A stretch of DNA of 34,925 nt from Fibrobacter sp. (lineage in GTDB: Bacteria; Fibrobacterota; Chitinivibrionia; Chitinivibrionales; Chitinispirillaceae): assembly GCA_012728995.1 (NCBI GenBank), contig JAAYEB010000061.1:1-34925 (forward strand), given 5' to 3'. The position numbers and the translations under genes are program-made. Under the pieces are notes generated by a model. It was not told where the DNA came from. It saw only the letters and a program-made list of their open reading frames with translations, and searched no databases. Positions within the stretch are counted from its first letter, which is position 1; each line of letters starts with the position of its first letter. This document shows, one piece after another, positions 8,336 through 22,758 of this stretch.

Positions 8336-8381
8336 TTGGTAGCGGGGGCTGGATTTGAACCAACGACCTTTGGGTTATGAG
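8336..8381. repeat. attL: orphan 3' part of tRNA-fMet
   Basis: 46 bases identical to 25022-25067. On the minus strand it corresponds to the anticodon, T-arm, acceptor 3' strand and CCA end of the tRNA. To the right the match stops abruptly (agcaaag here, cccaacg at the intact gene), so this copy has no 5' half and is not a functional tRNA. Confidence 0.93.
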
Positions 8382-8444
8382 AGCAAAGTTCTGTTAATTA
8401 AACCCTTTATTCATAGGTGTTTTAGCATTTTGTATAATTAAAAA

Positions 8445-8465
8445 CCGGTACAAAACCGGTACAAA
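8445..8465 (+). repeat. Two CCGGTACAAA repeats near the left end (candidate integrase arm sites)
   Basis: Two copies of CCGGTACAAA begin at 8445 and 8456, spaced 11 bases and located about 65 bases inside attL. The same word in the same orientation is repeated many times inside attR. Short direct repeats inside both ends of a tyrosine-integrase element are the usual layout of arm-type binding sites. Confidence 0.7.
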
Positions 8466-8562
8466 TTCCACTATAAACCGTATCGTATATACAAATAATA
8501 ATTTTATTTTTAAACTGCTTTTGTAAACACTTCGTTCTTGTCTTTTAATTAATAATAATAAT

Positions 8563-8604
8563 AAAAAACCGCCCCCGGAGAAAACAGGCCAAGTCCGGGA
8601 GCGG
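8563..8604 (-). terminator. Strong rho-independent terminator of the left-arm operon
   Basis: An 11-bp GC-rich stem (8594-8604 with 8569-8579, one mismatch) is followed on the minus strand by six T and a T/A-rich tail. It lies 40 bases after the stop of the last leftward gene and insulates attL from element transcription. Confidence 0.85.
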
Positions 8605-8645
8605 CTACCCTGGAAGCAGGCAAAAGAAACCAGAGTATGAGCGTA

Positions 8646-8936
8646 TTATTTATTAACGATTCGGTTTAAAATCTGTTTTGCCTTATCAAGAGCAATACCT
8701 GTATCGTTCGTTGAAACTACAGGCTTTTTCCAATATTTATTATCTTTGGTATCCTGATTAGCTGCCCTTAATCCCTTAATAGATGATTCTCGAACATCTA
8801 TTGAACCTTTATCATCAATAGAAATGCAGATAAAACCTTTAAAGCTCAATTGTACCTCCTCACCCTTCTGACTAAATGGGGTTTGATTTTTAGGTTGATA
8901 TTTATTGTAACATACCATAATATCTGAATCACACAT
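8646..8936 (-). CDS. Hypothetical protein, last gene of leftward operon
   Basis: 96 residues, starting MCDSDIMVCYNKYQPK. I chose the ATG at 8936, which overlaps the stop of the tail-hub-like gene by 8 bases and has AAGG at a normal distance; an ATG at 8945 is possible. The middle (LSFKGFICISIDDKGSIDVR) suggests beta strands and the C-terminus (GIALDKAKQILNRIVNK) a helix. No family recognised. The overlap and the terminator just downstream show that it belongs to the same transcript as the tail-hub-like gene. Confidence 0.65.
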   Translation of the reverse strand: MCDSDIMVCYNKYQPKNQTPFSQKGEEVQLSFKGFICISIDDKGSIDVRESSIKGLRAANQDTKDNKYWKKPVVSTNDTGIALDKAKQILNRIVNK

Positions 8937-10875
8937 AAACAACATCCTTGATTTCTGCTGTGGTTTCGAATATTACACAGGCCTGATAAATCTTTGTTTC
9001 GTCTTCTGCCCATATAGACGGATCATATATTCTAAACCTATAAAAAAACAACAACAGATCCTCTATTGCTCTATACTCTGAAACGGATTCACACAACTCA
9101 AAAAACGTGTAATTACTGATTGTCTTATACAGTCCGCTGCTTTCAGGCTCTTCGGTTCTAAAAAAATTCTTGTTTTTCGTGTCAGGTTCAGGACTATAAT
9201 AAAAATCTGGAATATTATCTATAAATGCCCCGTCCCCTGCTTCATCCAGTTTTTTGTCATCTAAAACATTGCTGACCCTGTTTATATAGCCGCGTTTCAT
9301 TATATAAATATTTTGTGGATTATGAACATGAATACACTTGCTCCAAAGCTTCAAACCAAGATAGGCTTTTGTAAATGTCATATTGTCGGGTATTTCTGGA
9401 AGTTTAATTTTAAAAGCCTTCTGTAAATTTCCTATAGTATGGCCAGCTGCTCCGTTTGTGTGCCTAAACCTGATTTTCCAGTATGCAAAAGTATCGTGCT
9501 TTCTGTCGTATACGTTGCTTTCATTATTGTATGCTGTCAATAATTCAAGATCTGTAACTGGCTCAATAGGATCACTATATACGCCGTCTATTCTCTTTTC
9601 ATAGATACTCATATCAGTTTCCGTTGTACTGTACGCTCCGAGGTCATTATCTGTTTGCAAGCCAAATGATTCGACTGGTATCGTATGGTAAGTATTTACA
9701 TTATCTGGATTGTTACTAAAATGTAAGGGATTACTTTTTATGCTATTGTTATTTTCGGTTGTAACTTCCAAGCTTTGCGGGGGAATTCGTATTATTTGAC
9801 CGTCTTCACCTTCGGTATAAACCTCTGCTTTACTATCTGGTATAGGTTCCCCGGTTTCGCTGTCGAAAAAGCCGCCACATGCGCCCGAATCTGCTGAATA
9901 CTCCTTTTCAAGATCATATATTTCAATCCATGCCTGTTTTGTTTCTGTCCCGTCCCAATTGCCAACCATATCAACAGGCAGATAACTTTCTACTGTAATT
10001 TGAATTACCCTCTCATCTGTCGGGGGAGTGATCCCGACTTCCTGAGCTGATAATATTTTCCTGTACACGTCCTTGTTTGTGCTATCACCTTCAACGCATT
10101 TAATGTATTTACCAACCAGACTACTTGCGTCAACGCTCATATCTGATGATCCGATTCGAAATGTATAGATATTTTCACCAAAACTATATTCCGTAATCGG
10201 GAACAATCCGAACTTGACCGGGTAATATGCGCTTTCAGGGTTCACTATATCCTTATTCAACAACTGGTCTTTTTTGTTCCTGTCACATATCATTTTAAAA
10301 AATCTGCCGTTTGCCGGATCGGATTGACCAAATGTTACGGGTAATATTTTATTTTCGTTGCTACCTGGTACATACGGCCGATTATTTTTGTTGATTACAT
10401 AACTGAGATTAGCGCGTTTTTTCTTGCGACTGCTTGTAGCTTTTAGTTGTATTACTTTATCATCCCATTCGTACGTATTACTAATCATGCCAGCAGCACG
10501 TCTTTTTGTGCTGATTGAATCACTGTCTGCATCGGTCCCCTTAAATTCGTAAATCTCAATATCTTTTCCTTGCAGCTTAATATTTAATTCTTCCAGTTTT
10601 AAACTAAGCTGGTCATTGTTGTATACTGTTACATCAAATGACGTGTCAGACATTACGCCGCCGCCAAATCGCATCAAATTTGCCTTCTGTGAAATAGGGC
10701 TAACACTTTTTATTATATGAGGCAAATAGCTTTCTTCTGTATTAAAAACAGGTGATTTACACCATCTTAATTCAGACATGCGCGAAGTATCAGAGGGAGT
10801 ATATAGCCCGATTTCGTGATGCTCCACGTATCTGTCATTTAATATTATTTTTACAACCTGTTTTAATACGCTCAT
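8929..10875 (-). CDS. Large phage tail-hub / tail-tip-like protein (tentative)
   Basis: 648 residues, start supported by GGAGG 9 bases upstream of the ATG. No signal peptide or membrane segment. The N-terminal 200 residues have the rhythm of phage tail hub or tail-tip proteins: YLPHIIKSVSPISQKAN, then FDVTVYNNDQLSLKLEELNI and LQGKDIEIYEFKG, then ENKILPVTFGQSDPANGRFF. In such proteins an opening beta domain describes an orifice or segment and is followed by a conserved P-V-x-x-G strand. The rest is a string of beta-rich segments without recognised repeats. No other virion gene is present in the element, which is odd. An alternative is an unrelated large beta-rich surface protein. It forms an operon with the small gene downstream and probably with the HTH genes upstream. 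Confidence 0.5.
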   Translation of the reverse strand: MSVLKQVVKIILNDRYVEHHEIGLYTPSDTSRMSELRWCKSPVFNTEESYLPHIIKSVSPISQKANLMRFGGGVMSDTSFDVTVYNNDQLSLKLEELNIKLQGKDIEIYEFKGTDADSDSISTKRRAAGMISNTYEWDDKVIQLKATSSRKKKRANLSYVINKNNRPYVPGSNENKILPVTFGQSDPANGRFFKMICDRNKKDQLLNKDIVNPESAYYPVKFGLFPITEYSFGENIYTFRIGSSDMSVDASSLVGKYIKCVEGDSTNKDVYRKILSAQEVGITPPTDERVIQITVESYLPVDMVGNWDGTETKQAWIEIYDLEKEYSADSGACGGFFDSETGEPIPDSKAEVYTEGEDGQIIRIPPQSLEVTTENNNSIKSNPLHFSNNPDNVNTYHTIPVESFGLQTDNDLGAYSTTETDMSIYEKRIDGVYSDPIEPVTDLELLTAYNNESNVYDRKHDTFAYWKIRFRHTNGAAGHTIGNLQKAFKIKLPEIPDNMTFTKAYLGLKLWSKCIHVHNPQNIYIMKRGYINRVSNVLDDKKLDEAGDGAFIDNIPDFYYSPEPDTKNKNFFRTEEPESSGLYKTISNYTFFELCESVSEYRAIEDLLLFFYRFRIYDPSIWAEDETKIYQACVIFETTAEIKDVVYV

Positions 10876-10898
10876 GTTTTTTTGCCTCCAAGTTTATA

Positions 10899-11327
10899 TT
10901 AGTTTATTGAAAAGGTCGGTTTCGTTAAAATAAAATGCGTCGATATTGTTTTTTGCGATTCGTTTTTACATGCTGTTTTTGTAATCTTATTCGCCAGTCT
11001 TTCGTTCATTTCATCACCCAAAACTTTTGAAGGTTTACCGTCCAGGGGGAAGTCAGGAGTAACGCCACCGATTTTAATATTTTTCCAGTCGTAAATAAAC
11101 AGATCTACTATTTCAGCAAAGTATTTTTTGCATACTTTTAACAGGTCGGTCTGAAGCGCAAACATTTCGCTTATACTATCGGTAATTTCGCAAGTCCTGA
11201 GCTTTGAACTAAAATCAGAATCAAAATATCTGCCTGTTATTTCCTCAAGCTTGTCTGCAATTTCTGGATCAGGTTCGCGGATAAAGAACTTCATTCCCGA
11301 GCTGTGGATATATGATAATTTATTCAT
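10899..11327 (-). CDS. Hypothetical protein upstream of the tail-hub-like gene
   Basis: 142 residues from the ATG at 11327, 12 bases after the stop of the preceding HTH gene; a TTG at 11375 would lengthen it by 16 residues but overlaps that gene. Mixed helical protein: IADKLEEITGRYF, LLKVCKKYFAEIVDLFIYDW, then a hydrophilic C-terminus. No family recognised. Its size and place just before a tail-hub-like gene would suit a structural chaperone, but the sequence does not show this. The next gene starts 23 bases downstream. Confidence 0.65.
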   Translation of the reverse strand: MNKLSYIHSSGMKFFIREPDPEIADKLEEITGRYFDSDFSSKLRTCEITDSISEMFALQTDLLKVCKKYFAEIVDLFIYDWKNIKIGGVTPDFPLDGKPSKVLGDEMNERLANKITKTACKNESQKTISTHFILTKPTFSIN

Positions 11328-11338
11328 ACCTGTTTTTT

Positions 11339-11572
11339 TTACCTTGTTAAAATTGCGTTCTCCTGTGAATTGCAATACTGGTTTTCTCTGCCTGACTTTC
11401 GTTCGTTAATTAACTGCTGAATTGTATTTCTTGCATGGTCCGGGAATTTACTATACCCGTTTAACCACTGCTGCACTGTGCTATATGGTCGATTTAACCG
11501 CATCGCGACATCATGCGGAGTGATGCCGAAAATTCTCATTTCATTTTTTAATCTTGTCTGTGGCTTGTACAT
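11339..11572 (-). CDS. Small Cro/XRE-like helix-turn-helix protein (copy B)
   Basis: 77 residues. The stretch ITPHDVAMRLNRPYSTVQQW followed by LNGYSKFPDHARNTIQQLI is a typical Cro/XRE helix-turn-helix with a W-L-N-G turn. An AAAGGGG ribosome site precedes the ATG. It resembles the next gene upstream (11584-11811) over the whole HTH, so the two are tandem paralogues. It is likely a DNA-binding regulator of element genes, but which operator it binds is unknown. Confidence 0.8.
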   Translation of the reverse strand: MYKPQTRLKNEMRIFGITPHDVAMRLNRPYSTVQQWLNGYSKFPDHARNTIQQLINERKSGRENQYCNSQENAILTR

Positions 11573-11583
11573 ATAAAACCCCT

Positions 11584-11811
11584 TTATAAAATTTTACCTC
11601 TGATTGCCGTACGTACACCCGATGAAAGGATTTGCTCCCGCTTGTTATTTAGAAGTTTTTCAATTTTAATTTTTGCATCATCTGTTATAGACCTGTTACC
11701 ATTTAACCAGTTTGCAACAACATATTCAGGCTGCTTTAAACTTTCAGAAATTTCTGCATTAGATAGCCCTACCATTTTGATTCTTTTCTTCAATTCTTGT
11801 ACGGATAACAT
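11584..11811 (-). CDS. Small Cro/XRE-like helix-turn-helix protein (copy A)
   Basis: 75 residues, first gene of the leftward operon that leads to the tail-hub-like gene. The HTH is LSNAEISESLKQPEYVVANW followed by LNGNRSITDDAKIKIEKLL, matching the downstream paralogue at W-L-N-G and the last helix. AAGGGGATAAGG precedes the ATG. A promoter-like sequence lies 40-65 bases upstream. Tandem Cro-like proteins suggest a two-regulator switch for the genes that follow; that is inference. Confidence 0.8.
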   Translation of the reverse strand: MLSVQELKKRIKMVGLSNAEISESLKQPEYVVANWLNGNRSITDDAKIKIEKLLNNKREQILSSGVRTAIRGKIL

Positions 11812-11848
11812 AAACCTTATCCCCTTTTGTTGTTGTTGTTACAAATGA

Positions 11849-11876
11849 ACATTATAAATTTTAATAAGATAGTCAA
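11849..11876 (-). promoter_or_regulatory. Candidate promoter of the HTH / tail-hub operon
   Basis: On the minus strand TTGACT (11871-11876) is followed after 16 bases by TAATGT (11849-11854), overlapping a TATAAT (11851-11856) at 14 bases. The next gene starts 38 bases downstream. The surrounding 350 bases (11812-12169) hold no gene, only this promoter and two terminators. Confidence 0.45.
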
Positions 11877-11914
11877 GGTTTTTCGCAAGGAATCGTACAC
11901 AAATCGGAAGGGAT

Positions 11915-11946
11915 AAAAAAAAGGCCGATCCATTTACGGACCGACC
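11915..11946 (-). terminator. Rho-independent terminator
   Basis: A 9-bp stem with two G-U type pairs (11938-11946 with 11923-11931) and a 6-base loop, followed on the minus strand by eight T (11915-11922). It closes the upstream leader-controlled operon before the HTH promoter. Confidence 0.75.
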
Positions 11947-12044
11947 TATAATTTGTATACGGCTTTTTTTTGGGGATAAAAGAAATAAAATGTATAAAAC
12001 AATTTTATAACGTATACACTATTTTGAATATATTAAAGAAACAG

Positions 12045-12073
12045 AAAAGGCGCAAGAGTTTATCCCCTGCGCC
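12045..12073 (-). terminator. Rho-independent terminator, weaker
   Basis: Stem GGCGCA/TGCGCC (12049-12054 with 12068-12073), followed on the minus strand by a short T run (TTTTC). It is the first of two terminators behind the leader-controlled operon. Confidence 0.55.
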
Positions 12074-12169
12074 TGTTGTAACGTACGTACGCACCGCACC
12101 AGTTCCCTGCTGCCCCTGATCAATTGAGCAAGACCGGGAGCCACCCGGCCAACAGGTACTTAAAATCGT

Positions 12170-12517
12170 TTATCCGGCCGGATACAATCCGACCTGTAAT
12201 AATAGGTCTATGATTTCGGATTCTATATTTACCCGGTTCAGGTCTGGAACAGGTCCGGGATCTGAAACCGGTTTCTGATCCTGTTTGGTGTCCGGTTCCA
12301 CATTCGTTTTTAAATTCAGTTTCAACAGACAATCAGACAGATACTCATTCATTTTTCTTTCTGCTTCCGCGTCCTTTACCACCTCATAAAACATGCGTTC
12401 AAAATGCTGTTTTTCTTCTGTTAATGCTTTTATCTGATTTCGCAATTCTGCCACCAAACTATTAAAATGATTTGCTTTTTCAATCCAGTATTCAAGATGT
12501 TCTGTTTTATCGTTCAT
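12170..12517 (-). CDS. Small coiled-coil protein, last gene of leader-controlled operon
   Basis: 115 residues, start supported by GGGAG upstream. Residues about 10-75 (HLEYWIEKANHFNSLVAEL, IKALTEEKQHFERMFYEVV, DAEAERKMNEYLSDCLLKL) form a long amphipathic helix, likely a coiled coil. A polar linker with QDQKPVSDPGPVPDL follows, then a final short helix (IIDLLLQVGL). No family recognised. It begins with MNDK, as does the upstream 134-residue protein, which may reflect shared translation-start sequence. Possibly an oligomerising accessory protein. Confidence 0.7.
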   Translation of the reverse strand: MNDKTEHLEYWIEKANHFNSLVAELRNQIKALTEEKQHFERMFYEVVKDAEAERKMNEYLSDCLLKLNLKTNVEPDTKQDQKPVSDPGPVPDLNRVNIESEIIDLLLQVGLYPAG

Positions 12518-12588
12518 GATATATTACTCCCTGTGTTACTGTGTGGGGATCTGGAAACGATCCCCTGTTTTAATAGCCCCCTGAATTA

Positions 12589-12993
12589 TTAAGGAATCTT
12601 CCTTTCCCGACAATCAAACCCATAATTGCAAAGCGGACATTTATAGCAATCATTATCATTTTGAGTACAATAACTTCGGGGTTCTGACCCATTCAGGCCG
12701 TCAATGTAACCAATAAGCCGGGCACCTGTATAAATCGAAGTGCTGCCATTATAATTTTTATTCAGACTGCTACGCCTTTCGTTCTGGCCTGTCCTGTATC
12801 CTGAAATATAATCCTCACTGCATTTTTCAAGGTCTTGAGATCCGTTTATAATTGCTGATGCGGGATTCTGTTTAATCAATGCCTGTTCAGATTCGGTTAA
12901 TGAATCCCATTTGCAGCAATAAGCTCCCTGTTCATCATAAACTTTTCCGTATTGATCTACGCGATATTCTGTTGTTACGTTTTTATCGTTCAT
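12589..12993 (-). CDS. Hypothetical protein with Cys-rich C-terminus
   Basis: 134 residues; AGGAG precedes the ATG. The N-terminal half is mixed (EYRVDQYGKVYDEQGAYCCK, SLTESEQALIKQNPASAI). A SGYRTGQNERR segment follows. The C-terminus ends with five cysteines in CTQNDNDCYKCPLCNYGFDC, which could bind zinc or an iron-sulfur cluster. No family recognised. Spacing to its neighbours is 60-80 bases, each gene with its own ribosome site. Confidence 0.7.
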   Translation of the reverse strand: MNDKNVTTEYRVDQYGKVYDEQGAYCCKWDSLTESEQALIKQNPASAIINGSQDLEKCSEDYISGYRTGQNERRSSLNKNYNGSTSIYTGARLIGYIDGLNGSEPRSYCTQNDNDCYKCPLCNYGFDCRERKIP

Positions 12994-13074
12994 TTTTTGT
13001 TACTCCTGATTTAAACTGTTTTTTTCTGGTTCCCGGAACCACGCTCCCGCCGGGGTTCCAGATCCGACACTGTT

Positions 13075-13314
13075 CTACATCATTTTAAGGTCTGTCACCT
13101 CTGGCCGCCCGTAATATGCGCTTGATACAACAAGGGGTAATCCTAATCGCTTCCATAGTTCCCGACCTGCTGAAGCAGCCTGTTCGAGCGTCTCATAAGT
13201 CGAAATTACTTCTACTATCTGGTAACTTGAACGCAAGGCCAATGCAGGACACCAATTGACTGAATCGCCTTTTTCATAAACGTGTTTTATTATACAAATA
13301 TTATCTGGATTCAT
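13075..13314 (-). CDS. Hypothetical small protein
   Basis: 79 residues with GGGAG upstream of the ATG. The reading MNPDNICIIKHVYEKGDSVN, then YQIVEVISTYETLEQAASAG and RELWKRLGLPL, suggests a compact alpha/beta fold. The part IVEVISTYETLEQA..AGREL resembles small accessory proteins in which a strand is followed by a helix, but no family is assigned. Second gene of the leader-controlled operon. Confidence 0.65.
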   Translation of the reverse strand: MNPDNICIIKHVYEKGDSVNWCPALALRSSYQIVEVISTYETLEQAASAGRELWKRLGLPLVVSSAYYGRPEVTDLKMM

Positions 13315-13397
13315 GTCTTTTTTTCTCCCGATTAAAATATTCCGATTTCAGTGAAAGCAGGACCGCGCTTATGTGGTCCTGCTGTGATCCGCCCGAT

Positions 13398-14012
13398 TCA
13401 GTTAAAACAAATACTGGAAACGATTTTCTCAAAATGTGTTTCCCAATAAGATTTAATCCCATTTAAACGGAGTTCCAAGGCTTCAGGGCTTTCACTGGTT
13501 TCAAAGGAACCTATAAGGCCAGATAAAATATCGTACCCTGCGCTTAGTTTATCAATCATTGTCGCGGTTATGTGTGCCGCCGGGGATCTATACTGAAGCG
13601 GGATACCCTGAAAATTCGTATCACTGAGGAGTAAGTCTTCCATGTAATCAATGGCGTTTCTGAACGTTCCGACACCAAACAAGCAGCCTGTACCCCTGAT
13701 GTTTTTATCGGTTTCAGACACAAATAAGGTTCCGATAATGGCAGATTCCAAACCCTTGTCATCAATATGAATCAGGTTAATATGCGGCCCCTTATTTTCT
13801 GAATAAGACTCAACAGGCAGGATAATATTTTTATCTGGAATGCCGCCCCTGAATTGTAATAGAATCAAATCGGAATCGCCTGAAGGGGTTACGGGTTCAC
13901 TTTTGCGGAGCAAAAACTTGTACCAGTTGTACATCTGCCTTTGAAGGTCTGTAACTGCTGAATTAACCAGGGCTGAAGCGGAATCAATAGAAGAATAATC
14001 GCGTCGTGTCAT
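13398..14012 (-). CDS. Hypothetical protein, first gene of leader-controlled operon
   Basis: 204 residues. The ATG is preceded by a very strong Shine-Dalgarno (AAGGAGGTG), which is itself part of a possible RNA switch in the leader. The N-terminus is helical (ASALVNSAVTDLQRQMYNWY), the middle beta-rich (LILLQFRGGIPDKNIILPV, HINLIHIDDKGLESAIIGTL) and the C-terminus helical (LELRLNGIKSYWETHFEKIV). No signal peptide, membrane segment or recognised motif. As the gene directly under the leader it is probably the most tightly controlled product of the operon. Confidence 0.75.
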   Translation of the reverse strand: MTRRDYSSIDSASALVNSAVTDLQRQMYNWYKFLLRKSEPVTPSGDSDLILLQFRGGIPDKNIILPVESYSENKGPHINLIHIDDKGLESAIIGTLFVSETDKNIRGTGCLFGVGTFRNAIDYMEDLLLSDTNFQGIPLQYRSPAAHITATMIDKLSAGYDILSGLIGSFETSESPEALELRLNGIKSYWETHFEKIVSSICFN

Positions 14013-14173
14013 GGTGACACCTCCTTAAGTTTTTTGATAAATAAAAATGCCCTGAACTCAAAACGCCTTAAGGAGCGTCCCGGTCCTCACGGATACCGGA
14101 TTCAGGGCAGTATTTTTCCAATAAAAATAGCCGGATTACGGACCGGGGAAAACGCCGCCTTAAGTCTTTTGAT
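14013..14173 (-). ncRNA. Structured 5' leader RNA, candidate translational switch
   Basis: A transcript from the promoter at 14180-14208 would carry about 160 untranslated bases. An outer stem GCCCTGAA/TTCAGGGC (14101-14108 with 14049-14056) encloses two hairpins: one with CCGGT/ACCGG arms (within 14082-14098), and one with ACGCTCCTTAAGGCGT (14063-14078 read on minus). In the second, CTCCTTAAG (14067-14075) is the exact reverse complement of CTTAAGGAG in the Shine-Dalgarno region (14021-14029). A third copy, CTTAAGGCG (14155-14163), near the transcript start could compete for the same segment. No known riboswitch class was recognised. The adjacent gap up to 14305 contains no gene. Confidence 0.6.
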
Positions 14174-14179
14174 ACTCTA

Positions 14180-14208
14180 AGTATAAGAAATATTTTCAGG
14201 GAATGCAA
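14180..14208 (-). promoter_or_regulatory. Sigma70-type promoter of the leader-controlled operon
   Basis: On the minus strand TTGCAT (14203-14208) and TATACT (14180-14185) are separated by exactly 17 bases. Transcription would begin near 14173, some 160 bases before the first ATG. Confidence 0.75.
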
Positions 14209-14305
14209 GCAGTTTTTTTATGTGCCTGGTGTAACTGGTTCCAGGTGTGGTTTTTATGGGGTTCGGGTTAATGTGTGGTCGGGGGTGTTTTTGGGAAATG
14301 CTGCT

Positions 14306-14749
14306 TTATGTAATACTACACTTTGAACCTTGAGTACAAAAATCTTCAATTGCACAAAGATCAGAGTGAAATTGTTGGGCTTGTTTAAATGTAAAAGCAT
14401 TATAGTTGCTATAACGTGCGGTTGAAGATGCATTTGATAAGCGTTCAAAACGGGATGAAATGTCTGAGTTCATTTGCTTACAAGCCAGTTGTTTTCTTAT
14501 TACGTGTTTTGGGGGGATGTCTGCAGACCTTCTTTTTAAAATTGCAAAATAGTTATCAATTGAACTGCATTTTATTTTTTTATTATTACATTCAATATCT
14601 GTTGGGAAAATTTTTGAATCAATAAAATGCAAAGCAGAGTAAAATGCAGTAGTTATCATCCAATCAGGATATTTTTGAACCGTTCCAATGTGTTCACATG
14701 CTTCTTTATTATGATTTGCATGTTTTATTTTTTTTTGTTTTATATTCAA
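14306..14749 (-). CDS. HEPN-domain-like protein
   Basis: 147 residues from the TTG at 14749; no ATG is available until residue 31, and no good ribosome site is seen. Translation is probably coupled to the upstream gene, which it overlaps by 41 bases. The pattern KYPDWMITTAFYSALHFIDS, then KQLACKQM and SSTARYSNYNAFTFKQAQQF, matches the four-helix HEPN fold as in families of small HEPN proteins in defence islands. A canonical R-x4-6-H RNase motif is not certain: the only nearby candidate is RRSADIPPKH. HEPN proteins are often RNases working as toxins in two-gene modules. The arrangement fits this, but activity is unproven. Confidence 0.6.
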   Translation of the reverse strand: MNIKQKKIKHANHNKEACEHIGTVQKYPDWMITTAFYSALHFIDSKIFPTDIECNNKKIKCSSIDNYFAILKRRSADIPPKHVIRKQLACKQMNSDISSRFERLSNASSTARYSNYNAFTFKQAQQFHSDLCAIEDFCTQGSKCSIT

Positions 14750-15209
14750 AGAAAAACCCGTCAGCCTTTATCATATCTCTGTCAATTGTATTGGTATTGG
14801 ATACCGCCATGTAGGAATAGTCTATCAGAATGTTATTTTCGCTTATATCAGAAAAATAGCATCTACTGTCTTCATAAACTTTAAGCATTTCTTCTGAAAT
14901 ATAAAAATCAGTTTCCAAACCAATTAAAACACTAAACCGATATAAGCTTTCAGGTCTCACAAACATTGTATTTACAGGGATGTTACTATTTTTTAATTTT
15001 TCAAACCAAAACTCTGTTTTGTGTAAAACTGATTTTAAGTTTTGGTTAAAAGCTTTATCTATAGCCTGCTTTTTTATATCATCAGCAAGCTCCATTCCCT
15101 CAACAAAGATTTGTATTGCTTCACTAATCGTGAGTGAATTAGGAGGAGAAGTACTCCAAGACTCATCTTTATAAACAGTATCAAAGTTACTACAAGTCAT
15201 CTGTAACAT
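14709..15209 (-). CDS. Hypothetical partner of the HEPN-like protein
   Basis: 166 residues; ATG at 15209 (another at 15200), both with weak ribosome sites. Cytoplasmic, mixed alpha/beta. Helical part LTISEAIQIFVEGMELADD and LHKTEFWFEKLKNSNI; then MFVRPESLYRFSVLIGLETD, which looks like a strand-helix; then LIDYSYMAVSNTNTIDRD and MIKADGFFFEY. I do not recognise the family. The 3' end overlaps the HEPN-like gene, a layout typical of toxin-antitoxin pairs in which the first gene could be the antitoxin. A nucleotidyltransferase partner, common for HEPN, is not supported: no GS-x-A-x-G motif is seen. Confidence 0.6.
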   Translation of the reverse strand: MLQMTCSNFDTVYKDESWSTSPPNSLTISEAIQIFVEGMELADDIKKQAIDKAFNQNLKSVLHKTEFWFEKLKNSNIPVNTMFVRPESLYRFSVLIGLETDFYISEEMLKVYEDSRCYFSDISENNILIDYSYMAVSNTNTIDRDMIKADGFFFEYKTKKNKTCKS

Positions 15210-15361
15210 ATATAAAATCTATGATAATGGTTTTTCTACCACCCCTACATCCATGATACAAATGTGCAGGGATCAAACTTAATCTTATAATACCACTTTA
15301 ATATATATTACGCATTAAAAAATCAAATAGCCACTATAATAATATTTTTCCAGTTCAATTT

Positions 15362-15685
15362 TCATGCCTGCGCTTTATGGTATCCGGGGGTATCACGTAC
15401 CGCCTGCTTTAAATCTTCGGTTCCTTTCTCGTTAATCGTTTTAAGTTCTCCGTAAGTTTTGCCTGATACTCCAAGTTCTTTTGCGAGTTGGTCTCTTACT
15501 TTTCCTGGCTCCCCCCGATGTGGTAAATTTACCACATCGGGAAATTTAGTTCCTTTCTTCAAATTAGCGTTCTTTATTCTGTTTTTAATATCCGCCAATA
15601 TCGGTTCCTTCCTTGCCAACAATGCCGCCTTATCCAGATCAGACAGATTGCGCCTGCCAAGCTGGTTGTTTATTATGTGTAGCAT
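15362..15685 (-). CDS. ParB-like protein fragment (HTH part without the N-terminal domain)
   Basis: 107 residues. It begins IINNQLGRRNLSDLDKAALL and continues with a helix-turn-helix (KVRDQLAKELGVSGKTYGEL) and ELKTINEKGTEDLKQAVRD. This is the C-terminal half of plasmid or phage ParB/Spo0J-like nuclease-HTH proteins, where the sequence normally follows a ParB N-terminal domain of about 90 residues. That domain is absent upstream, where the DNA becomes AT-rich noncoding sequence. An AGGTGG lies 15 bases before the ATG, so the short form may still be translated. A 28-base perfect palindrome is embedded in the gene. It is either a remnant or a stand-alone DNA-binding protein. Confidence 0.6.
   Translation of the reverse strand: MLHIINNQLGRRNLSDLDKAALLARKEPILADIKNRIKNANLKKGTKFPDVVNLPHRGEPGKVRDQLAKELGVSGKTYGELKTINEKGTEDLKQAVRDTPGYHKAQA
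15514..15541. repeat. Perfect 28-base palindrome inside the ParB-like gene
   Basis: The arms CCCGATGTGGTAAA and TTTACCACATCGGG match without a mismatch or spacer. It encodes PDVVNLPHR of the ParB-like protein on the minus strand. The arm end CACATCGGG recurs in the scrambled tRNA copy near 25190. It could be a protein-binding site, a partition or origin site, or a small palindromic insertion. Confidence 0.7.
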
Positions 15686-15724
15686 GATCGGGTTATGGTT
15701 CCACCTGTTTTTTACACGTCCAGA

Positions 15725-16089
15725 ACCGACCTAAATTATTATAAATTATTACGTTAAATTATCATATATCAAATTATATTCGATCATATCTTATTAAATC
15801 GAATCTGATTATCAGGTCACGTTTTTCAGATCCGGCCTGTTCCCCTTTGTAAATCAAATATATGAATTATAACAATTTACTGACCTGTGTAATGTAACAG
15901 TCTGAGATAAAAATTTGTGCGCATTTTTTGTGCGCTTCCTTTACCTCATTGCGTTTATATCTCTGGTAGTACCTACTGTTTTGTATATCAATGACTTACA
16001 TTGCTGTATTATTATCACATTGCAAGTATTTATATTGATATATAATAAATATATTATGCTTTGTTAATTTATTTTTAATAAGATATATG
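15725..16089. other. AT-rich, gene-free stretch; possible unwinding region
   Basis: Mostly A and T, with runs such as AATTATTATAAATTATTACG and TTGATATATAATAAATATAT. A small hairpin (GCGCA/TGCGC) lies near 15920-15935. No gene seen. Its position beside the iteron cluster would suit a DNA-unwinding element of an origin; this is inference. Confidence 0.35.
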
Positions 16090-16590
16090 CCTGGTGTTCT
16101 GGTCTGCTGGTCTGCTGGTTGTTATCAGGGTTCACTTGGTTATGATCTGATTTGCTGTGTTATTACTCTGGTTCCTGTGGGTGTGTAATAGTTGTTATTA
16201 TCCGGGTATTATACATGCTGGTTATAATGAGTTTATTCTGTGCTGCTGGTTCCGGTTCGGGCTGTGTTGTGTTGTGTTGATTCGTGATCAGTATTCACTG
16301 GTTATGATCTGATTGCTGTGCTGTTAATCCTGATCTGGTTTATTGATTATGGTTATTCCCCTGGAACTATACATGGTGTTTTATACTGTGTGCTGGCCTG
16401 TGCTGATTCGTGTTGCTGTGATACTGTTATTACTGATCTGCTGTTCGTGCCTGTGGTGTATACTCCTGCTGTGCTGGACCTGTTACCACTGATCAGGTGT
16501 TCGGGTTGCTGGTATCACTGGTTGTTTGTGGTACAAGTCTTATATTCTCGCCCATGCCTTCACTGGTAGTGTATTGTGCCAGTGTCGGAA
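16090..16590. other. Strand-asymmetric G/T/C-rich noncoding block with imperfect repeats
   Basis: About 500 bases in which the plus strand is conspicuously poor in A and full of CTGG, GCTG and TGTG words. A segment of about 40 bases is imperfectly repeated (16124-16166 and 16287-16326, sharing GGTTATGATCTGATT). The only open frame (16318-16569) consists of simple-composition residues and lacks a ribosome site, so I do not call it a gene. Confidence 0.5.
16533..16548 (+). repeat. 16-base direct repeat flanking the iteron region (left copy)
   Basis: ACAAGTCTTATATTCT occurs here and again at 17054-17069, the two copies enclosing the iteron cluster. Confidence 0.75.
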
Positions 16591-16643
16591 AACCTTACAG
16601 TTTTATTGCTGAATCGTTTTTTTTGAAATAGTTTTCAGAAAAC

Positions 16644-16966
16644 ATTAACCTCATTAACCCTCATTAACCTTTTGGCCTTTAAGCTTCAAAAAGGGCATTT
16701 TTTGGGTTAATGGGGTTTTTGGTTTTTTTGTCCATGGGTTAACGGGGGTTAACAGGGTTAACGTTTTCTAAAAACTTTCCTATGTATCTTTTTTTTGTAA
16801 AACTTTTTATAAATGATTAACCTCATTAACCCTCATTAACCCAAAAGCTTAATATTGCTTTATATGAGCTGGAAATGGCATTTTTATTTATATATAAATC
16901 TTGCTTTTTTATAATCTAATTAACATCTCATTAACCCCGTTAACCCAATTGCCTTAAATGGGTTAA
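16644..16966. repeat. TTAACC iteron cluster, candidate replication origin
   Basis: Thirteen copies of TTAACC or its complement GGTTAA in 323 bases. Plus-oriented copies start at 16645, 16654, 16664, 16817, 16826, 16836, 16931 and 16940. Minus-oriented copies start at 16705, 16737, 16747, 16756 and 16961. Within groups the spacing is 9-10 bases, nearly one helical turn. A 26-base unit is identical at 16644-16669 and 16816-16841. Groups face each other as inverted repeats. With a D5-like primase-helicase in the same element and AT-rich DNA nearby, this is the best origin candidate. Confidence 0.7.
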
Positions 16967-17053
16967 AAACGCCGTTTCTGCTATGTTCCCCTGTATCGTT
17001 CCTGCCTATATTAATCAGAATCCCCGTTTTCTTTGCTTCATTAAACTTATTCA

Positions 17054-17069
17054 ACAAGTCTTATATTCT
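17054..17069 (+). repeat. 16-base direct repeat flanking the iteron region (right copy)
   Basis: Second copy of ACAAGTCTTATATTCT, 521 bases after the first. Confidence 0.75.
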
Positions 17070-17158
17070 GGTGTGCATTCCCCGGACGTTATAAGCCGTT
17101 TCACTTAATGAAGTATTCTTATAAATGTTATACTCCCCTTAAAAACTGTAAAACCTGT

Positions 17159-17569
17159 TTATATTACTTCGATTTCTACCACTTCGCTTTTATTCAAATC
17201 GGATCCGCAAAATCTGCATTTGATTGCGTCTTTTTTAATCTGCTCTGAGCAGTACGGGCATTTCATCATTGAGGTTGCTTCAATTGCTGCTGGTGAATCT
17301 GCTGGTATTGTATTATGATTATTGCAAACCGGGCATATTGCTAACAGCTTTGAGCTTCTCCAGATACTATATATCAGGCCAGGGATTATAAAAGATAGCC
17401 ATAATATAAGTTCGATAAATCCATCCCCTTGATACCTTCGTTTTGTCCTTCCAGTATAACCGCAATCGGTACAATAATATTCTGTTGTTCTGGCCTTGAT
17501 TGAACTTTTGATTTTTAGAGATAGTAAAACAATCAGAAAAAGTACACAGATGATTATAAAAGGTGACAT
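17159..17569 (-). CDS. Membrane protein with zinc-ribbon motifs
   Basis: 136 residues from the ATG at 17569, which has AAGGAG 9 bases upstream; the frame opens at a GTG at 17578. Order: N-terminal membrane segment (FIIICVLFLIVLLSL); a Cys pair (YYCTDCGYTG); a second hydrophobic segment (FIELILWLSFIIPGLIYSIW); CPVC; then a zinc ribbon (MKCPYCSEQIKKDAIKCRFC). The first two Cys pairs probably form one split zinc site around the membrane hairpin. Similar small proteins occur in many bacteria and phages with no defined role. It is transcribed leftward from the divergent region at 17.57-17.95 kb, opposite the XRE-like gene. Confidence 0.75.
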   Translation of the reverse strand: MSPFIIICVLFLIVLLSLKIKSSIKARTTEYYCTDCGYTGRTKRRYQGDGFIELILWLSFIIPGLIYSIWRSSKLLAICPVCNNHNTIPADSPAAIEATSMMKCPYCSEQIKKDAIKCRFCGSDLNKSEVVEIEVI

Positions 17570-17772
17570 GAGGTTCACTCCTTTTTAAGGTTATTTGATT
17601 TTTATTCAATTACAATTAATATAATAAAAAACCAGATCCGGCCTGCTCCCTGCCCTTCGTTTGACAAAACGGTAATAGTTCTTTGATCTGAAAACCCCTG
17701 TTTCTGGTCGTAATAATTAATAATAATGTTTTTTTTATTTTAGTTGTCACGTTTTTCCCCATTGCTCCCTAT

Positions 17773-17801
17773 ATTATAGCCATGATTGTTGAAATTGTCG
17801 G
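17773..17801 (-). promoter_or_regulatory. Candidate leftward promoter of the divergent region
   Basis: On the minus strand a perfect TATAAT (17773-17778) is 17 bases from CCGACA (17796-17801), a 4/6 match to TTGACA. The -35 lies 8 bases from an 18-base palindrome. The transcript would reach the membrane zinc-ribbon gene after about 200 bases. Confidence 0.5.
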
Positions 17802-17809
17802 GTGTGATT

Positions 17810-17827
17810 AACCCGTATATACGGGTT
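17810..17827. promoter_or_regulatory. 18-base perfect palindrome, candidate operator between divergent genes
   Basis: AACCCGTATATACGGGTT lies in the 384-base gap between the leftward zinc-ribbon gene and the rightward XRE-like gene. It is next to the -35 of the leftward promoter and overlaps TATA-like sequence usable rightward. The XRE-like protein encoded next door is the obvious candidate binder. No gene was seen in the rest of the gap. Confidence 0.55.
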
Positions 17828-17953
17828 ATACGGTTTATTGGTCAATATTGGTATTGATTATCGGGAATTCTGTTTGTAAATTTTGTACATGACTTTAGAG
17901 AGTCTGTTTTTTTTGAAAGTATATGAATATTAATTAATATAGGAGGTTTATTC

Positions 17954-18310
17954 ATGCAAATGTCAAAAGAGGTTAATATTAGGCTGGGAGCAATCGAGAA
18001 GACCCGCCAAGAGCTTATTGAGGAGGTAAATAAGCGATGGGGAAAAATATCTTATAATTCATTCACTCAAGTACTTAATGGCTATGTAAAGCCTAAACAC
18101 AATCTTGTTAATACTATCTTTGAAGTACTTGCTGAATGGGAAAGAGCTGCAGGTATTAGAATTGAAATATCGCAATTCCATTTTGAACCAGTGCGGATAT
18201 TTAAAGATGACAAACCTATTAAAGAGGTATCACAATGTGAGTCTTCAAGGTTTAATCCTGATGGTTCGGCAAAGGCACCGAGGCCAATGCGGCCGCCTGA
18301 GTTTTCATAA
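17954..18310 (+). CDS. XRE/Cro-like regulator
   Basis: 118 residues; AGGAGG precedes the ATG at ideal distance. Residues about 12-65 (LGAIEKTRQELIEEVNKRWG, then ISYNSFTQVLNGYVKP and LVNTIFEVLAEWERA) resemble the short HTH of phage regulators with an L-N-G turn. The C-terminal 45 residues are polar and Pro-rich, without a domain. It is the first gene of the rightward arm that leads to replication and integration genes. It is probably the switch regulator and may bind the palindrome 130 bases upstream. Confidence 0.65.
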   Translation: MQMSKEVNIRLGAIEKTRQELIEEVNKRWGKISYNSFTQVLNGYVKPKHNLVNTIFEVLAEWERAAGIRIEISQFHFEPVRIFKDDKPIKEVSQCESSRFNPDGSAKAPRPMRPPEFS

Positions 18311-18364
18311 TTTAAGATTACCAAACTAAACTGATTAACATTTTTCATAAGGAGTAATAAAATC

Positions 18365-19186
18365 ATGAGTAAATTGATAGATAATAAAAACGATTTCGAG
18401 TTCAAATTTCCCGAAGGCTACACCCCACCCGAGCGCGTCGAACACAATATTTCAGAAATACTTGCCGCCGGTGAAGCTGACTTAAAAGAAAGTCAAATAA
18501 AATTGAATAAAGCAATAAATAAGCGTGATTCAATCAAGCAGCGTATCACTGAAACAGAGAAAACAATCGCTGACTTGAAAGGTAAATTGCCTGAATTAAA
18601 AGAAAATTTCGAGCAAGCGGTATTTGATAATACTCCCACTGAAGGGATTCAAAGAGAAATGCAAGAAGTAAACTCATCTTTAAGCACACATGAAATGTGC
18701 CTGAGTTCTCTTAAGAATGCACTGCCAATTATTCAGGAGACAATAACCCATTTGCAGAACGATATTAGGCAAGCTGAGTGCTCAGGGTTTGTTGTTGAGC
18801 TTATAAAGCTGGCCCCCCAATACAACGAAACAGCAAACAGGCTTGCGCATATTATTCAATCAATCTCAAAGGCACTCTTCAATATCAAGAATAAAAATCC
18901 TGATCTCTTGGCTAAAAACAATATACCAGGGCTTGATTTCGGGGAATTCTCAAAAGTTATTAACCATTTGGAACAAGTACCTGTTCTGTTTCATGGCTTC
19001 GAGTCTGAAATAAAACTAGGTCCTAAAGATTTCAGATATTATTGGATTTATCGGCCAAAATTCGATTTGCCGGGAAGTTATGCTCATTTAAGAGATTTTA
19101 CTTTTGAGGAACCATGGGACGAAAATTCACCATATCTTGAACATTCATTAAAAGGCACTGACCAGGAGGGTAATGTTACGAGGTGA
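18365..19186 (+). CDS. Coiled-coil protein of unknown function
   Basis: 273 residues, AAGGAG before the ATG. Residues about 28-150 form long amphipathic helices (LKESQIKLNKAINKRDSIKQ, ITETEKTIADLKGKLPELKE, ETITHLQNDIRQAE), a likely antiparallel coiled coil. The C-terminal 100 residues are globular (LGPKDFRYYWIYRPKFDLPG, YAHLRDFTFEEPWDE). No family recognised. The stop codon overlaps the start of the SprT-like gene by 4 bases (GTGA), so the two proteins are translationally coupled and may act together. Confidence 0.7.
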   Translation: MSKLIDNKNDFEFKFPEGYTPPERVEHNISEILAAGEADLKESQIKLNKAINKRDSIKQRITETEKTIADLKGKLPELKENFEQAVFDNTPTEGIQREMQEVNSSLSTHEMCLSSLKNALPIIQETITHLQNDIRQAECSGFVVELIKLAPQYNETANRLAHIIQSISKALFNIKNKNPDLLAKNNIPGLDFGEFSKVINHLEQVPVLFHGFESEIKLGPKDFRYYWIYRPKFDLPGSYAHLRDFTFEEPWDENSPYLEHSLKGTDQEGNVTR

Positions 19187-19842
19187 ATAAATATATTGAT
19201 AAATGCAAAGAGATGCTTCGGGAGATATTCATTAAGGCTTACCGCCGGGATGATCTCCCGTTCCCAAAAGTCACGAGTTACGAGTTAAGTGAGTCAATAG
19301 GGCTTTATATACCGGGCAACAAGTCAGAGCCGCATAAAAAGTTTGATCCTGGTATTATCGTTATAGATTCAATGGTTTTTAATTTTAACGATTGGGAACA
19401 ATTGGCTTTTGATATACTCCTGCACGAGCAATTGCATTGTATGCAAGAGTATAGAAAAGTTTTATCGGGCTCAAAAATTTTTTCTCCGCATGGAGAGGAT
19501 TTTTTTAATGATGCGTGTATGTTAAGCAACGTTTACAATTTGCCTGAGCCGGACCGAGCTTTTACAAGCGGCTTAGGTGTTCAAAATTGGCCGAATAACG
19601 TACGCTGTGCTGCCGATCCGGGTTATAATCGGGTGTATATTGATTACCTTATGGCGCGTGATGAAAAGTATCATTCCGGCTGCCCTGTTGTAAAAGACCT
19701 TTGCAAGCGCAATAAGATTGATTCAGTAAATGAAGCAGCCCGGAAGCTTTGGGGAGTCTTGCATGATGATCAAAAGGAATATTTGGTTTTACTGGTTGAT
19801 AATATTAGAAATTTAGTAGGTATAGAGATAAGGGTATTGTAG
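19183..19842 (+). CDS. SprT-like putative zinc metalloprotein
   Basis: 219 residues from a GTG that overlaps the previous stop. The motif HEQLH at residues 81-85, in LLHEQLHCMQEY, is the zinc-binding HExxH. A HGEDFFNDA segment at 103-111 supplies the probable third ligand, as in SprT-like domains (HExxH followed by HGxxF). The C-terminal region has a further SVNEAARKLWGVLHDDQKEY helix. SprT/Spartan proteins act on proteins bound to DNA. In an element this may serve DNA-protein crosslink removal or anti-host functions, which is inference. It lies 2 bases upstream of the primase gene. Confidence 0.7.
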   Translation: MNKYIDKCKEMLREIFIKAYRRDDLPFPKVTSYELSESIGLYIPGNKSEPHKKFDPGIIVIDSMVFNFNDWEQLAFDILLHEQLHCMQEYRKVLSGSKIFSPHGEDFFNDACMLSNVYNLPEPDRAFTSGLGVQNWPNNVRCAADPGYNRVYIDYLMARDEKYHSGCPVVKDLCKRNKIDSVNEAARKLWGVLHDDQKEYLVLLVDNIRNLVGIEIRVL

Positions 19843-19844
19843 AA

Positions 19845-22334
19845 ATGAAAACCTGCTATGCTAACAGAGGTAACCAAACATGGTTAAATACAATTAAGAA
19901 AGCAGGCCATAATAATATGAAAAACGATATTTACAAGCTACACAAGACAGGGTTTAACCTGGTTCCAATTGCCGATAAAACCAAGCGGCCGGGTGTCTCA
20001 ACCTGGAGGCAATGGACGCAAGACAAACAAACCGAATCTGATATTAACAATCTGTTCACAGGTAATTATTATGGAGTCGGTTTAATTTGTGGCCAAGTGT
20101 CTGGTATTGAGGTCCTTGATATAGATTGCAAATATGATCTCACAGGTACATTATTCGAAGATTTACTTACAATCGTTTTTGGCCGAGATAATAATCTTAT
20201 TAAGAAAATAGCTTGTCAAAAAACTGTTTCAGGAGGATATCATCTGATATATAAGTGCAGTTCGATTGCAGGGAATCAGAAGCTTGCAATCAGAGCAGCC
20301 ACCGAGCAGGAGTTAAGTAAATATCCGAATCGAAAGCAATATGAGGTAATTGAAACTCGCGGTGAGGGAGGTTACATTTGTTGCGATCCTACACCAGGGT
20401 ATAAGTTCGTTACTGAACAATGCGGGTTTGATTTTTCTTCGATTTTCGACCTGAAGGAAATTACACCTGAGGAGCGTGTAACACTGATTACGTCTGCAAA
20501 AGCACTTAACCAGGCTGTTGCGCCTGTTAATGCTGTGAAAAATGAACCAGACCAGAAGCCAAATTCAGAATGGATAATCTCACCCTTAGATGATTATAAT
20601 GATAAGGTTTCTGATCAAGATATGCTTTCACTGCTGCAAAAACATAAATGGACAATCACAAAGCAAACCAGTAAAATTATTCACCTGGCCCGGCCTGATA
20701 AAAAAACAGGAACCTCTGCGACTTACGGGTATCACAACAAGTGCTTGTACGTGTTCACTTGTAGCGATTCTGTATTTGCTGGACCGCGAGGCTACACACC
20801 TGTTCAGGTACTGGCATTGTTAGAATATAATGGGGATTTTTCAAAAACTGCAAAGGATTTATTAAATAAAGGCTTTGGTAAAAAACACCAGTTATCCATA
20901 CCTTGCAATACATCAAATAACGATACTTCAGGCAGTCAGGTTAAAGAACCGTTAAAATTAACAACTGATCAATCTGGAGAGCTGCAAATCTCTGATGCAC
21001 TTTTAGCACAATATGTTGTTGATCAAATCAAAGATCGGTTCAGGTATAACCGGTCTATAGAAAGTTTTTGCATTTATAAAAACGGTAGATTTCAACTTGA
21101 CGAAAAAAAGCACTTTACAACTATTGTTCAGAAGTACATAAGGCAGATGCGCCTTGAAATTCATGATGCTTTTCCTTGGCTTGAGTTCAAAACTAAGCAG
21201 AGTATTGATAAAACTTTTATCCGATATTTGAATACAAAAAAAACACGTGAGGTTATCGAGCGAATTAAAGATACACCAGAAATTGAGGTTTTAGAAAAAG
21301 AACTCGATCGAGACCCTGATTTGTTAAACTGCAAAAATGGTTTTATAAATTTGAGGTCTGGGAGCTTTTCCCACCATACCCCTGATTGCTTATTCAGCAA
21401 GGTTTCAGGAACAGGCTACGACCCTAAAGCCACCTGTCCGAAATGGAAAAATTTTCTGGCCGAAATTATACCAGATCAAGAAATAAGAAATTATTTACAA
21501 GTATTAGTCGGGTATAGTTTAACAGGAGATACAAGCGGACAAGCACTAATAATCCTTTTTGGATCTGGCGCAAACGGTAAATCTGTTTTTGTCCATATTA
21601 TGGAAAAGTTAGCTGATGAATATTATAAAACCCTTCAGCCTGATGCACTGATTTATAAATACCAAAGCACTTCTGGTAATGCCACACCTGAAATTGCAGG
21701 CTTGCGCGGAGTTCGTTTTGCTGTCAGTCCTGAAGTTCCCGAAGGTAGACTTGATGAAAGCCTTGTAAAATATTTAACAGGAAGTGATCTTGTAACCGCG
21801 CGGTATTTATACGGTAAGCCCTTTACCTTTCGCCCGTCGCATAAGATTTGGTTAACAAGTAATTATCTGCCAACAATCAGAGGGAGCGATTACGGGATCT
21901 GGAGAAGAATCCACGTTATACCTTTTAGTGTTCAGATACCAGAAGAGAAGCGGATACCGTTTACTGAGCTGTGCAATGATTTAATAACAGAATTACCCGG
22001 AATACTGAATTGGGCTATTGTTGGAGCAAAGAAATACTATGCTGAAAAAAGGCTTAAGCCGCCTGAAGGTGTTACGAAAGCCTGTAGCGAATATAAACGA
22101 AGTGTTGACACAATTGAAACCTTTATAACTGATCAGTGTATAATAAGCGATTACATTTCTATTAAAGCAAAGGATCTTTACAAGGCTTATTCTGAATGGT
22201 GTCATGATAACAATGAGTATCAATTTAAATCACGAGATTTTTATAAAAATGTAGAATTGAAGGGTTTTGAGAAAAGAAACGCTGCAAAAAATCATGTACA
22301 CTTTTTCGGAATTTCCCTAAAGGAAGAATTTTAA
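19845..22334 (+). CDS. Primase-polymerase / SF3 helicase replication protein
   Basis: 829 residues from the ATG at 19845; the ATG at 19917 (residue 25) also fits, since the domain begins GFNLVPIADKTKRPG. N-terminal bifunctional primase-polymerase domain (about 28-215): YGVGLICGQVSGIEVLDID with Asp92 and Asp94 as metal ligands, SGGYHLIY with His133, and GEGGYICCDPTPGY. A linker follows, then a D5-N-like region. The superfamily 3 helicase starts near residue 540 and has Walker A GSGANGKS (about 573-580), AGLRGVRFAVSPEV, and IWLTSNYLPTIRGSDYGIWR. The last 60 residues form a winged helix (IKAKDLYKAYSEWC). Such P4-alpha / poxvirus-D5-like proteins recognise iterons, unwind and prime. It probably fires the TTAACC origin in the left arm. 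Confidence 0.92.
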   Translation: MKTCYANRGNQTWLNTIKKAGHNNMKNDIYKLHKTGFNLVPIADKTKRPGVSTWRQWTQDKQTESDINNLFTGNYYGVGLICGQVSGIEVLDIDCKYDLTGTLFEDLLTIVFGRDNNLIKKIACQKTVSGGYHLIYKCSSIAGNQKLAIRAATEQELSKYPNRKQYEVIETRGEGGYICCDPTPGYKFVTEQCGFDFSSIFDLKEITPEERVTLITSAKALNQAVAPVNAVKNEPDQKPNSEWIISPLDDYNDKVSDQDMLSLLQKHKWTITKQTSKIIHLARPDKKTGTSATYGYHNKCLYVFTCSDSVFAGPRGYTPVQVLALLEYNGDFSKTAKDLLNKGFGKKHQLSIPCNTSNNDTSGSQVKEPLKLTTDQSGELQISDALLAQYVVDQIKDRFRYNRSIESFCIYKNGRFQLDEKKHFTTIVQKYIRQMRLEIHDAFPWLEFKTKQSIDKTFIRYLNTKKTREVIERIKDTPEIEVLEKELDRDPDLLNCKNGFINLRSGSFSHHTPDCLFSKVSGTGYDPKATCPKWKNFLAEIIPDQEIRNYLQVLVGYSLTGDTSGQALIILFGSGANGKSVFVHIMEKLADEYYKTLQPDALIYKYQSTSGNATPEIAGLRGVRFAVSPEVPEGRLDESLVKYLTGSDLVTARYLYGKPFTFRPSHKIWLTSNYLPTIRGSDYGIWRRIHVIPFSVQIPEEKRIPFTELCNDLITELPGILNWAIVGAKKYYAEKRLKPPEGVTKACSEYKRSVDTIETFITDQCIISDYISIKAKDLYKAYSEWCHDNNEYQFKSRDFYKNVELKGFEKRNAAKNHVHFFGISLKEEF

Positions 22335-22336
22335 AA

Positions 22337-22573
22337 ATGGGCAAAATCCTAAATTTTAAATATACATCTGTTAATGAATTCCTGAAAATGAATCCGTTTA
22401 TTAATCGGGTGATAAAAATTCAGGCAGGTTTCCTGTTCAAAATATATGTAAAATGGTGTACAAGTAACGACCATTGCCCTGTATCCCGGAACCTGTTCTA
22501 TCGAGCAATGACACACGAGAGTTTCAAAAAAATTAATAGATCTGGACATGTAATTTTTGTTCGGGAAAACTGA
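22337..22573 (+). CDS. Stand-alone winged-helix protein, copy of the primase C-terminal domain
   Basis: 78 residues, starting 2 bases after the primase stop. Its IKIQAGFLFKIYVKWCTSND aligns with IKAKDLYKAYSEWCHDNN of the primase tail; both continue SR-x-FY and end in a short F/H-rich strand. It is therefore a detached duplicate of the D5-like C-terminal winged helix. It might bind the same DNA sites and modulate initiation, or dimerise with the primase. No other family is seen. Confidence 0.7.
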   Translation: MGKILNFKYTSVNEFLKMNPFINRVIKIQAGFLFKIYVKWCTSNDHCPVSRNLFYRAMTHESFKKINRSGHVIFVREN

Positions 22574-22584
22574 GCTGGTAGAAT

Positions 22585-22758
22585 ATGCCAATACTAAAAA
22601 AGATGCACTATTACCGAATAAAGGAGGTTTACAAAAAGAGAACAAAATTTATATCTGAAATAATACCACACAAAGATATCGAAGTATCGGAAAAGATGTT
22701 TAAGCAATTTGAAGAGGTTAAACCGCGAAACATTAAAAAAAAGGAGCAAACAGAATGA
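22585..22758 (+). CDS. Small basic hypothetical protein
   Basis: 57 residues (MPILKKMHYYRIKEVYKKRT at the start, ending NIKKKEQTE), strongly basic. The ribosome site before the ATG at 22585 is weak; the ATG at 22603 is an alternative. A strong AAAGGAGG at 22620-22627 lies inside the frame without a usable start codon after it. The stop overlaps the start of the next gene (ATGA), supporting translation. Confidence 0.5.
   Translation: MPILKKMHYYRIKEVYKKRTKFISEIIPHKDIEVSEKMFKQFEEVKPRNIKKKEQTE

Follow-up and report, generated by a model that had tools for sequence, protein, structure and literature searches.

Temperate phage P1 and satellite P4 keep their own early genes silent by means of an RNA switch, the c4-type antisense RNA, and the c4/CI RNAs represent the textbook case of RNA-based phage immunity. 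In P1, a separate antisense RNA blocks the translation of read-through transcripts (PMC5320573, PMC8198154, PMC12197685), and Icd of the same phage suppresses cell division (PMC8198154). P4 CI is an antisense RNA with an upstream (seqA) and a downstream (seqC) target (PMC4825925); the P4 cI region matches the Rfam C4 family, to which P1 c4 also belongs. To note, an annotated protein gene, cI, overlaps this match in the P4 record (L049, 1021-1306, minus strand; 74.9 bits), so that its label, “transcriptional repressor”, covers an RNA gene. The group 1 sRNAs of Acinetobacter baumannii are C4-like as well, many of them, with different specificity loops, being found in a single genome (PMC5320573). 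The c4 RNAs compiled by Weinberg (2010, PMC2864571) cover Proteobacteria and phages. For the mechanism in P1 and P4, this account relies on later publications and on the annotation of the two records.

The window analyzed here, a whole stretch of 34,925 nucleotides from a Fibrobacter sp. contig (JAAYEB010000061.1), contains on its minus strand a leader of ~160 nt (14173 to 14013) that precedes a 204-residue ORF, the ATG of which is at 14012 (Table 1). Very probably, this leader is the control locus of an integrated, P4-like satellite and works through a c4/CI-type antisense RNA. The assignment is based on a full-length match to the Rfam c4-2 family, on the P1-like order of the sites and placement of b' and a', and on the C4 match of P4 CI. 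It is also based on the covariation of the pairing segments and of the closing stem, on the P4-family primase, integrase and tRNA repeat of the element, and on other loci: some that share the P2 hairpin motif pass the c4-2 cut-off, and related RNAs precede Bro-N genes. Counted against it are a c4-2 score under the cut-off, the absence of RF01695 and RF03163 matches, related loci devoid of a downstream target, and a 204-aa protein unlike Icd or an antirepressor.

Table 1. Features of the leader and of the element carrying it, in window coordinates.
Feature	Position	Strand	Basis and remarks
Promoter TTGCAT-17-TATACT	14208-14180	minus	Read from the sequence
Upstream target site R1	14158-14172	minus	a1 TCAAAA (14172-14167) and b1 CTTAAGG (14164-14158); predicted RNA 5' end; covaries with the antisense in 8 loci
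Spacer between upstream target and core	14110-14157	minus	Sequence and alignment; contains a hairpin-forming sequence
c4-type antisense core	14048-14109	minus	P1 closing stem 14109-14100/14057-14048; P2 hairpin with GUGA loop 14099-14080; P3 hairpin 14078-14063; from the Rfam c4-2 match, closing-stem covariation and the predicted fold of 8 cores
Antisense segment	14058-14075	minus	b' CTCCTTAAG (14075-14067, P3 loop) and a' TTTTGA (14063-14058, junction); from covariation and b' and a' placement equal to phage P1 c4
U-rich run after closing stem	14036-14047	minus	In 5/5 distinct leaders and in the c4-2 consensus; putative terminator tail
Downstream target site R2	14018-14037	minus	a2 TCAAAA (14037-14032) and b2 CTTAAGGAG (14029-14021); covers the Shine-Dalgarno; covaries with the antisense in 8 loci
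204-aa target gene	13398-14012	minus	ORF; matches no known family
P4-like integrated element	8336-25072		16.7 kb; the tRNA-Met 3' part is directly repeated over 51 nt at its two ends
Small HTH proteins, phage-repressor-like	11339-11811	minus	PHROGs
P4-family primase	19845-22334	plus	Pfam, NCBIfam TIGR01613
Phage integrase	23649-24713	plus	Pfam

The preliminary description of this DNA had reported a consensus promoter. A promoter is present and its position is kept in all five distinct leaders (the window; paralogous leaders on contigs C7, C87 and C480 of the same genome; and that of G010 and G016, two genomes from another genus of the family, with TTGACA), but its -35 box matches the consensus at three of six positions only and it is absent from the output of a consensus promoter scan. 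Further downstream, the segment CTCCTTAAG has two complements, CTTAAGGAG at the ribosome site and CTTAAGG, contained in CTTAAGGCG near the 5' end of the leader. The internal complement of the ribosome site and the competing 5' copy, both described before, are indeed there, and the complementarity is longer than had been claimed: the adjoining TTTTGA pairs with the TCAAAA preceding both copies. One upstream target and one at the ribosome site of the first gene, both complementary to the antisense and within the same transcript, are what a c4/CI locus displays. The spacer also harbors CCCCGGTCC (14148-14140), complementary to part of P2.

A permissive Rfam scan matches c4-2 (RF02944) over its full length (1-79) at 14111-14044, with 37.5 bits and an E-value of 7e-7, and the C480 paralogue reaches 38.5 bits, both below the curated cut-off of 41 bits. 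The c4-2 features present in the window are the closing stem, P2 with its UA bulge and GNRA loop, P3, and the terminal U-run, while the loop sequences differ. Since membership in c4-2 is borderline, the RNA was filed as a variant working like c4/CI. The c4 antisense RNA family (RF01695) has no match in the window at E up to 10, phage P1 scoring 68.8 in the same test; under the same limit, the window also lacks the upstream a1b1 hairpin motif (RF03163), which P1 has. Known riboswitch classes were excluded, as no riboswitch family of Rfam matches the window at the gathering threshold or at E up to 10.

Scanning 168 Fibrobacterota genomes with c4-2 returned C480 alone, because sub-threshold copies are missed. 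The exact P2 hairpin motif, CCGGTATNCGNGAGGACCGGG, occurs in 10 viral contigs and 7 genome contigs, and two viral contigs with the identical motif exceed the c4-2 cut-off, with 46.1 and 44.4 bits. A gene encoding Bro-N, a domain common in phage antirepressors, follows the RNA motif in L044 (Desulfoluna) and in L031 (a viral contig resembling a prophage). Clear upstream pairing without an evident match at the next ribosome site is found in L022/L028, L044 and L046, the targets of which may be located elsewhere. No DNA relatives of the leader were found in phage records. On another viral contig (L026, minus strand), two c4-like cores are apparently arranged in tandem upstream of the P2 motif, with a GTTTCCGTGAGGAACCGC hairpin before the second.

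Taken alone, the window locus is only suggestive, because 88 of 5000 dinucleotide-shuffled leaders (1.8%) also contain 9 nt perfectly complementary to the Shine-Dalgarno region and because the fold energy of the leader is ordinary (z -1.75). The question of complementarity was settled by covariation across eight loci with different sequences: the window, C7, C87, C480, the G010/G016 leader, and L023, L031 and L045, these last three from viral contigs and Desulfoluna. The 5' copy, internal segment and Shine-Dalgarno copy of each related leader differ from those of the window and yet remain complementary, G010 and G016 displaying yet another code. All three segments change together. Loss of the complementary segments in homologues, which the preliminary description had named as grounds for refutation, is not what the comparison shows; its outcome favors the pairing. 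With segments picked by eye, the own antisense-target duplex at the Shine-Dalgarno site is the best in 8/8 rows and columns of the comparison (mean energy -21.5 kcal/mol, versus -11.9 for foreign duplexes), and 1 of 40,320 permutations is as good as the own assignment. The upstream site yields the same proportion of permutations, its own pair being the best in 6/8 rows and 7/8 columns; the upstream copy of C87 is a poorer fit to its own antisense. The antisense is predicted to pair more strongly with the Shine-Dalgarno site than with the upstream site, which fits a role of the latter as a competitor.

The three-way junction suggested earlier is confirmed by the closing stem: of the 160 pairs that it could form over 16 loci, 150 are present, each position showing 3-5 pair types, as compared to a mean of 80 pairs and a maximum of 114 for shuffled arms. 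These pairs were counted on hand-set arms, MAFFT having misplaced the stem, a procedure that favors pairing and is corrected in part by the shuffled-arm control. Predicted folds of eight cores share this three-way junction.

For P1/P7 c4 (RF01695; operon c4-icd-ant), the annotated P1 record gives the order a1-b1, c4, a2-b2 and icd, which is also that of the sites and first gene in the window. As in P1 c4, a closing stem and two hairpins form the core; the P3 loop holds b', and the junction after it holds a'. Besides the missing RF01695 and RF03163 matches, the window departs from P1/P7 by the distance between the a and b sites (2 nt, against 7 and 22), by a b2 that covers the Shine-Dalgarno completely, by the U-run after the closing stem, and by a different first gene. 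Satellite P4 shares with the window a P4-family primase, integration at a tRNA, and an antisense RNA whose targets lie upstream and downstream of it in its own transcript. For P4 CI, the described effect is transcription termination, whereas the target in the window is the ribosome site; the other gene content differs. Unlike the Acinetobacter baumannii group 1 sRNAs, each complete copy here keeps its own upstream and downstream targets and its own target gene. What the strong covariation upholds of the preliminary description is a leader with three mutually exclusive partners that controls translation; a riboswitch-like reading, as a ligand sensor of no known class, is not supported, structure and layout matching those of the c4/CI antisense RNAs of P1/P7 and P4, which act by base pairing.

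The mobile context known from c4/CI loci is present too: the leader is carried by an element with an integrase, a P4-family primase and the tRNA-Met repeat, the two copies of which span 8336-8386 and 25022-25072. No capsid or terminase gene was recognized among the element proteins scanned, which represent part of its ORFs. The contig of the G016 copy contains an ORF that, judged by eye, is tape-measure-like. Upstream of the leader, two overlapping ORFs of 147 and 166 residues (14306-15209, minus strand) have no family match; by eye, they are possibly a HEPN-like pair, perhaps cargo of the element. Repeats of AAAAACCGGTAC lie just inside both element ends, as one short copy on the left (8440-8465) and a tandem array near the integrase (24739-24853), and are possible excision or integrase sites.

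By analogy with P1 and P4, the RNA most likely blocks translation of the 204-aa gene and confers immunity on the element. The promoter position, target sites, antisense core, covariation and mobile context are seen in the sequence, while P1 and P4 supply the remainder of the scheme. A single promoter would give rise to an RNA comprising the a1b1 site, the structured core and, overlapping the ribosome site of the 204-aa gene, the a2b2 site; within the core, the anti-Shine-Dalgarno sequence would be displayed in the P3 loop and adjoining junction (b'a'). RNAs ending past the closing stem and U-run, or excised from the precursor, would accumulate. As the c4-2 consensus has this U-run too, the RNA 3' end may be generated by termination. 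The core RNA would then pair with a2b2 on read-through transcripts and mask the Shine-Dalgarno, the upstream a1b1 copy competing for the same antisense segment. Such a circuit would keep the 204-aa gene off in cells already carrying the element, and allow its expression for a short time in cells that the element has just entered. Judging from predicted pairing energies, copies with different a/b sequences should cross-react poorly, as in P1/P7 heteroimmunity.

The target gene itself is less readily classified. The 204-aa protein belongs to no family in Pfam, PHROGs, NCBIfam or PADLOC, its matches to solved structures are all insignificant, and its AlphaFold model is unusable (mean pLDDT of 39). 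It resembles neither Icd nor an antirepressor, and no relatives were found in phages, plasmids or viral contigs. Among the 168 Fibrobacterota genomes, the RNA motif and the 204-aa family are found in exactly the same three, and a leader of the same kind precedes 6/6 of the phylum relatives with an intact 5' end. Between the coding regions of C7 and C87, 48 codons differ synonymously and 9 non-synonymously, which indicates that the coding region is under purifying selection, and b' and b2 have changed together between the two loci.

This tight association of RNA and protein, together with the purifying selection, would also suit a toxin-antitoxin-like pair, in which the 204-aa protein would be a growth inhibitor of the Icd/Kil type and the c4-like RNA its antidote. 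Such a function is compatible with a c4/CI-type locus, has a precedent in the action of P1 Icd on cell division, and would account for single-gene cassettes persisting outside elements. The protein, however, has no similarity to a known toxin and, with 204 residues, is long for a type I toxin; we therefore regard the proposal as possible, although on the unlikely side.

The cassettes in question are those of C7, C87 and C480, where leader and gene lie outside any recognizable element. Contigs C60, C61 and C484 end inside the gene and C330 in the promoter, a pattern to be expected of assembly breaks at repeats. The neighbor of the cassette is a BREX system in C7, a type II restriction-modification set with EcoRII-C in C87, a second BREX locus in C484, a type III restriction enzyme in C61, and PDC-M41, a PADLOC candidate system, in C330; C480 is the exception, with neighbors that by eye look like housekeeping genes. 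On five contigs of the window's own genome, the cassette or part of it is thus found with nearby defence genes (L033, 1018-18771; L034, 253-4774; L035, 1-7883; L036, 559-5315; L038, 687-3048), an adjacency that is a descriptive finding rather than a measure of enrichment. An ordinary explanation is available, since P4-like satellites carry defence hotspots (PMC9122126; PMC8628076). It is rather improbable, in our estimate, that the stand-alone cassettes (a c4-like RNA and a gene of 203-211 residues, each with its own code) serve as functional components of chromosomal defence islands, where the resident RNA would silence the corresponding early gene of an incoming satellite or phage, or where the pair would guard the adjoining BREX or restriction system. 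If this were true, c4-type RNAs would provide heritable, code-based immunity against mobile elements outside phages.

That R1, core and R2 share one transcript, that R1 is at its extreme 5' end, and that pairing of the internal segment with R1 and with R2 is mutually exclusive might also describe a purely cis-acting switch. Within a single RNA, the internal segment would then pair with the 5' copy in the on state and with the ribosome site in the off state, the U-run perhaps acting as an attenuator, and there would be no separate RNA acting in trans. The core structure is, however, that of known separate antisense molecules, and several related loci have no downstream target in cis, which makes this arrangement improbable. 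A ligand-binding riboswitch of a new class, to which the conserved P2 hairpin and the alternative pairing with the ribosome site might point, is disfavored and hardly credible, as the conserved core is a c4-type fold, the antisense code differs between copies as expected of RNA-RNA specificity, and the controlled genes belong to mobile elements and to no metabolic pathway.

For a c4/CI-type control locus, the mechanism is already known. New are the Fibrobacterota host, in which a limited literature search found no paper on c4-type RNAs, the target protein family, the target site at the extreme RNA 5' end, and the presence of several stand-alone cassettes that differ in code and mostly adjoin BREX or restriction genes. 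The c4/CI design now extends to Fibrobacterota, to contigs labelled Desulfoluna and Hydrogenedentes and to diverse viral contigs, and acquires a new target protein family; the adjacency to BREX and restriction systems ties satellite immunity RNAs to defence islands. Several differently coded copies in one genome provide a natural set for following how antisense immunity codes diverge without cross-talk. In G010 and G016, leader and promoter are identical (L007 and L008, ~1250-1500) while the downstream proteins have clearly diverged, which suggests either a recent exchange or a very strong constraint on the RNA.
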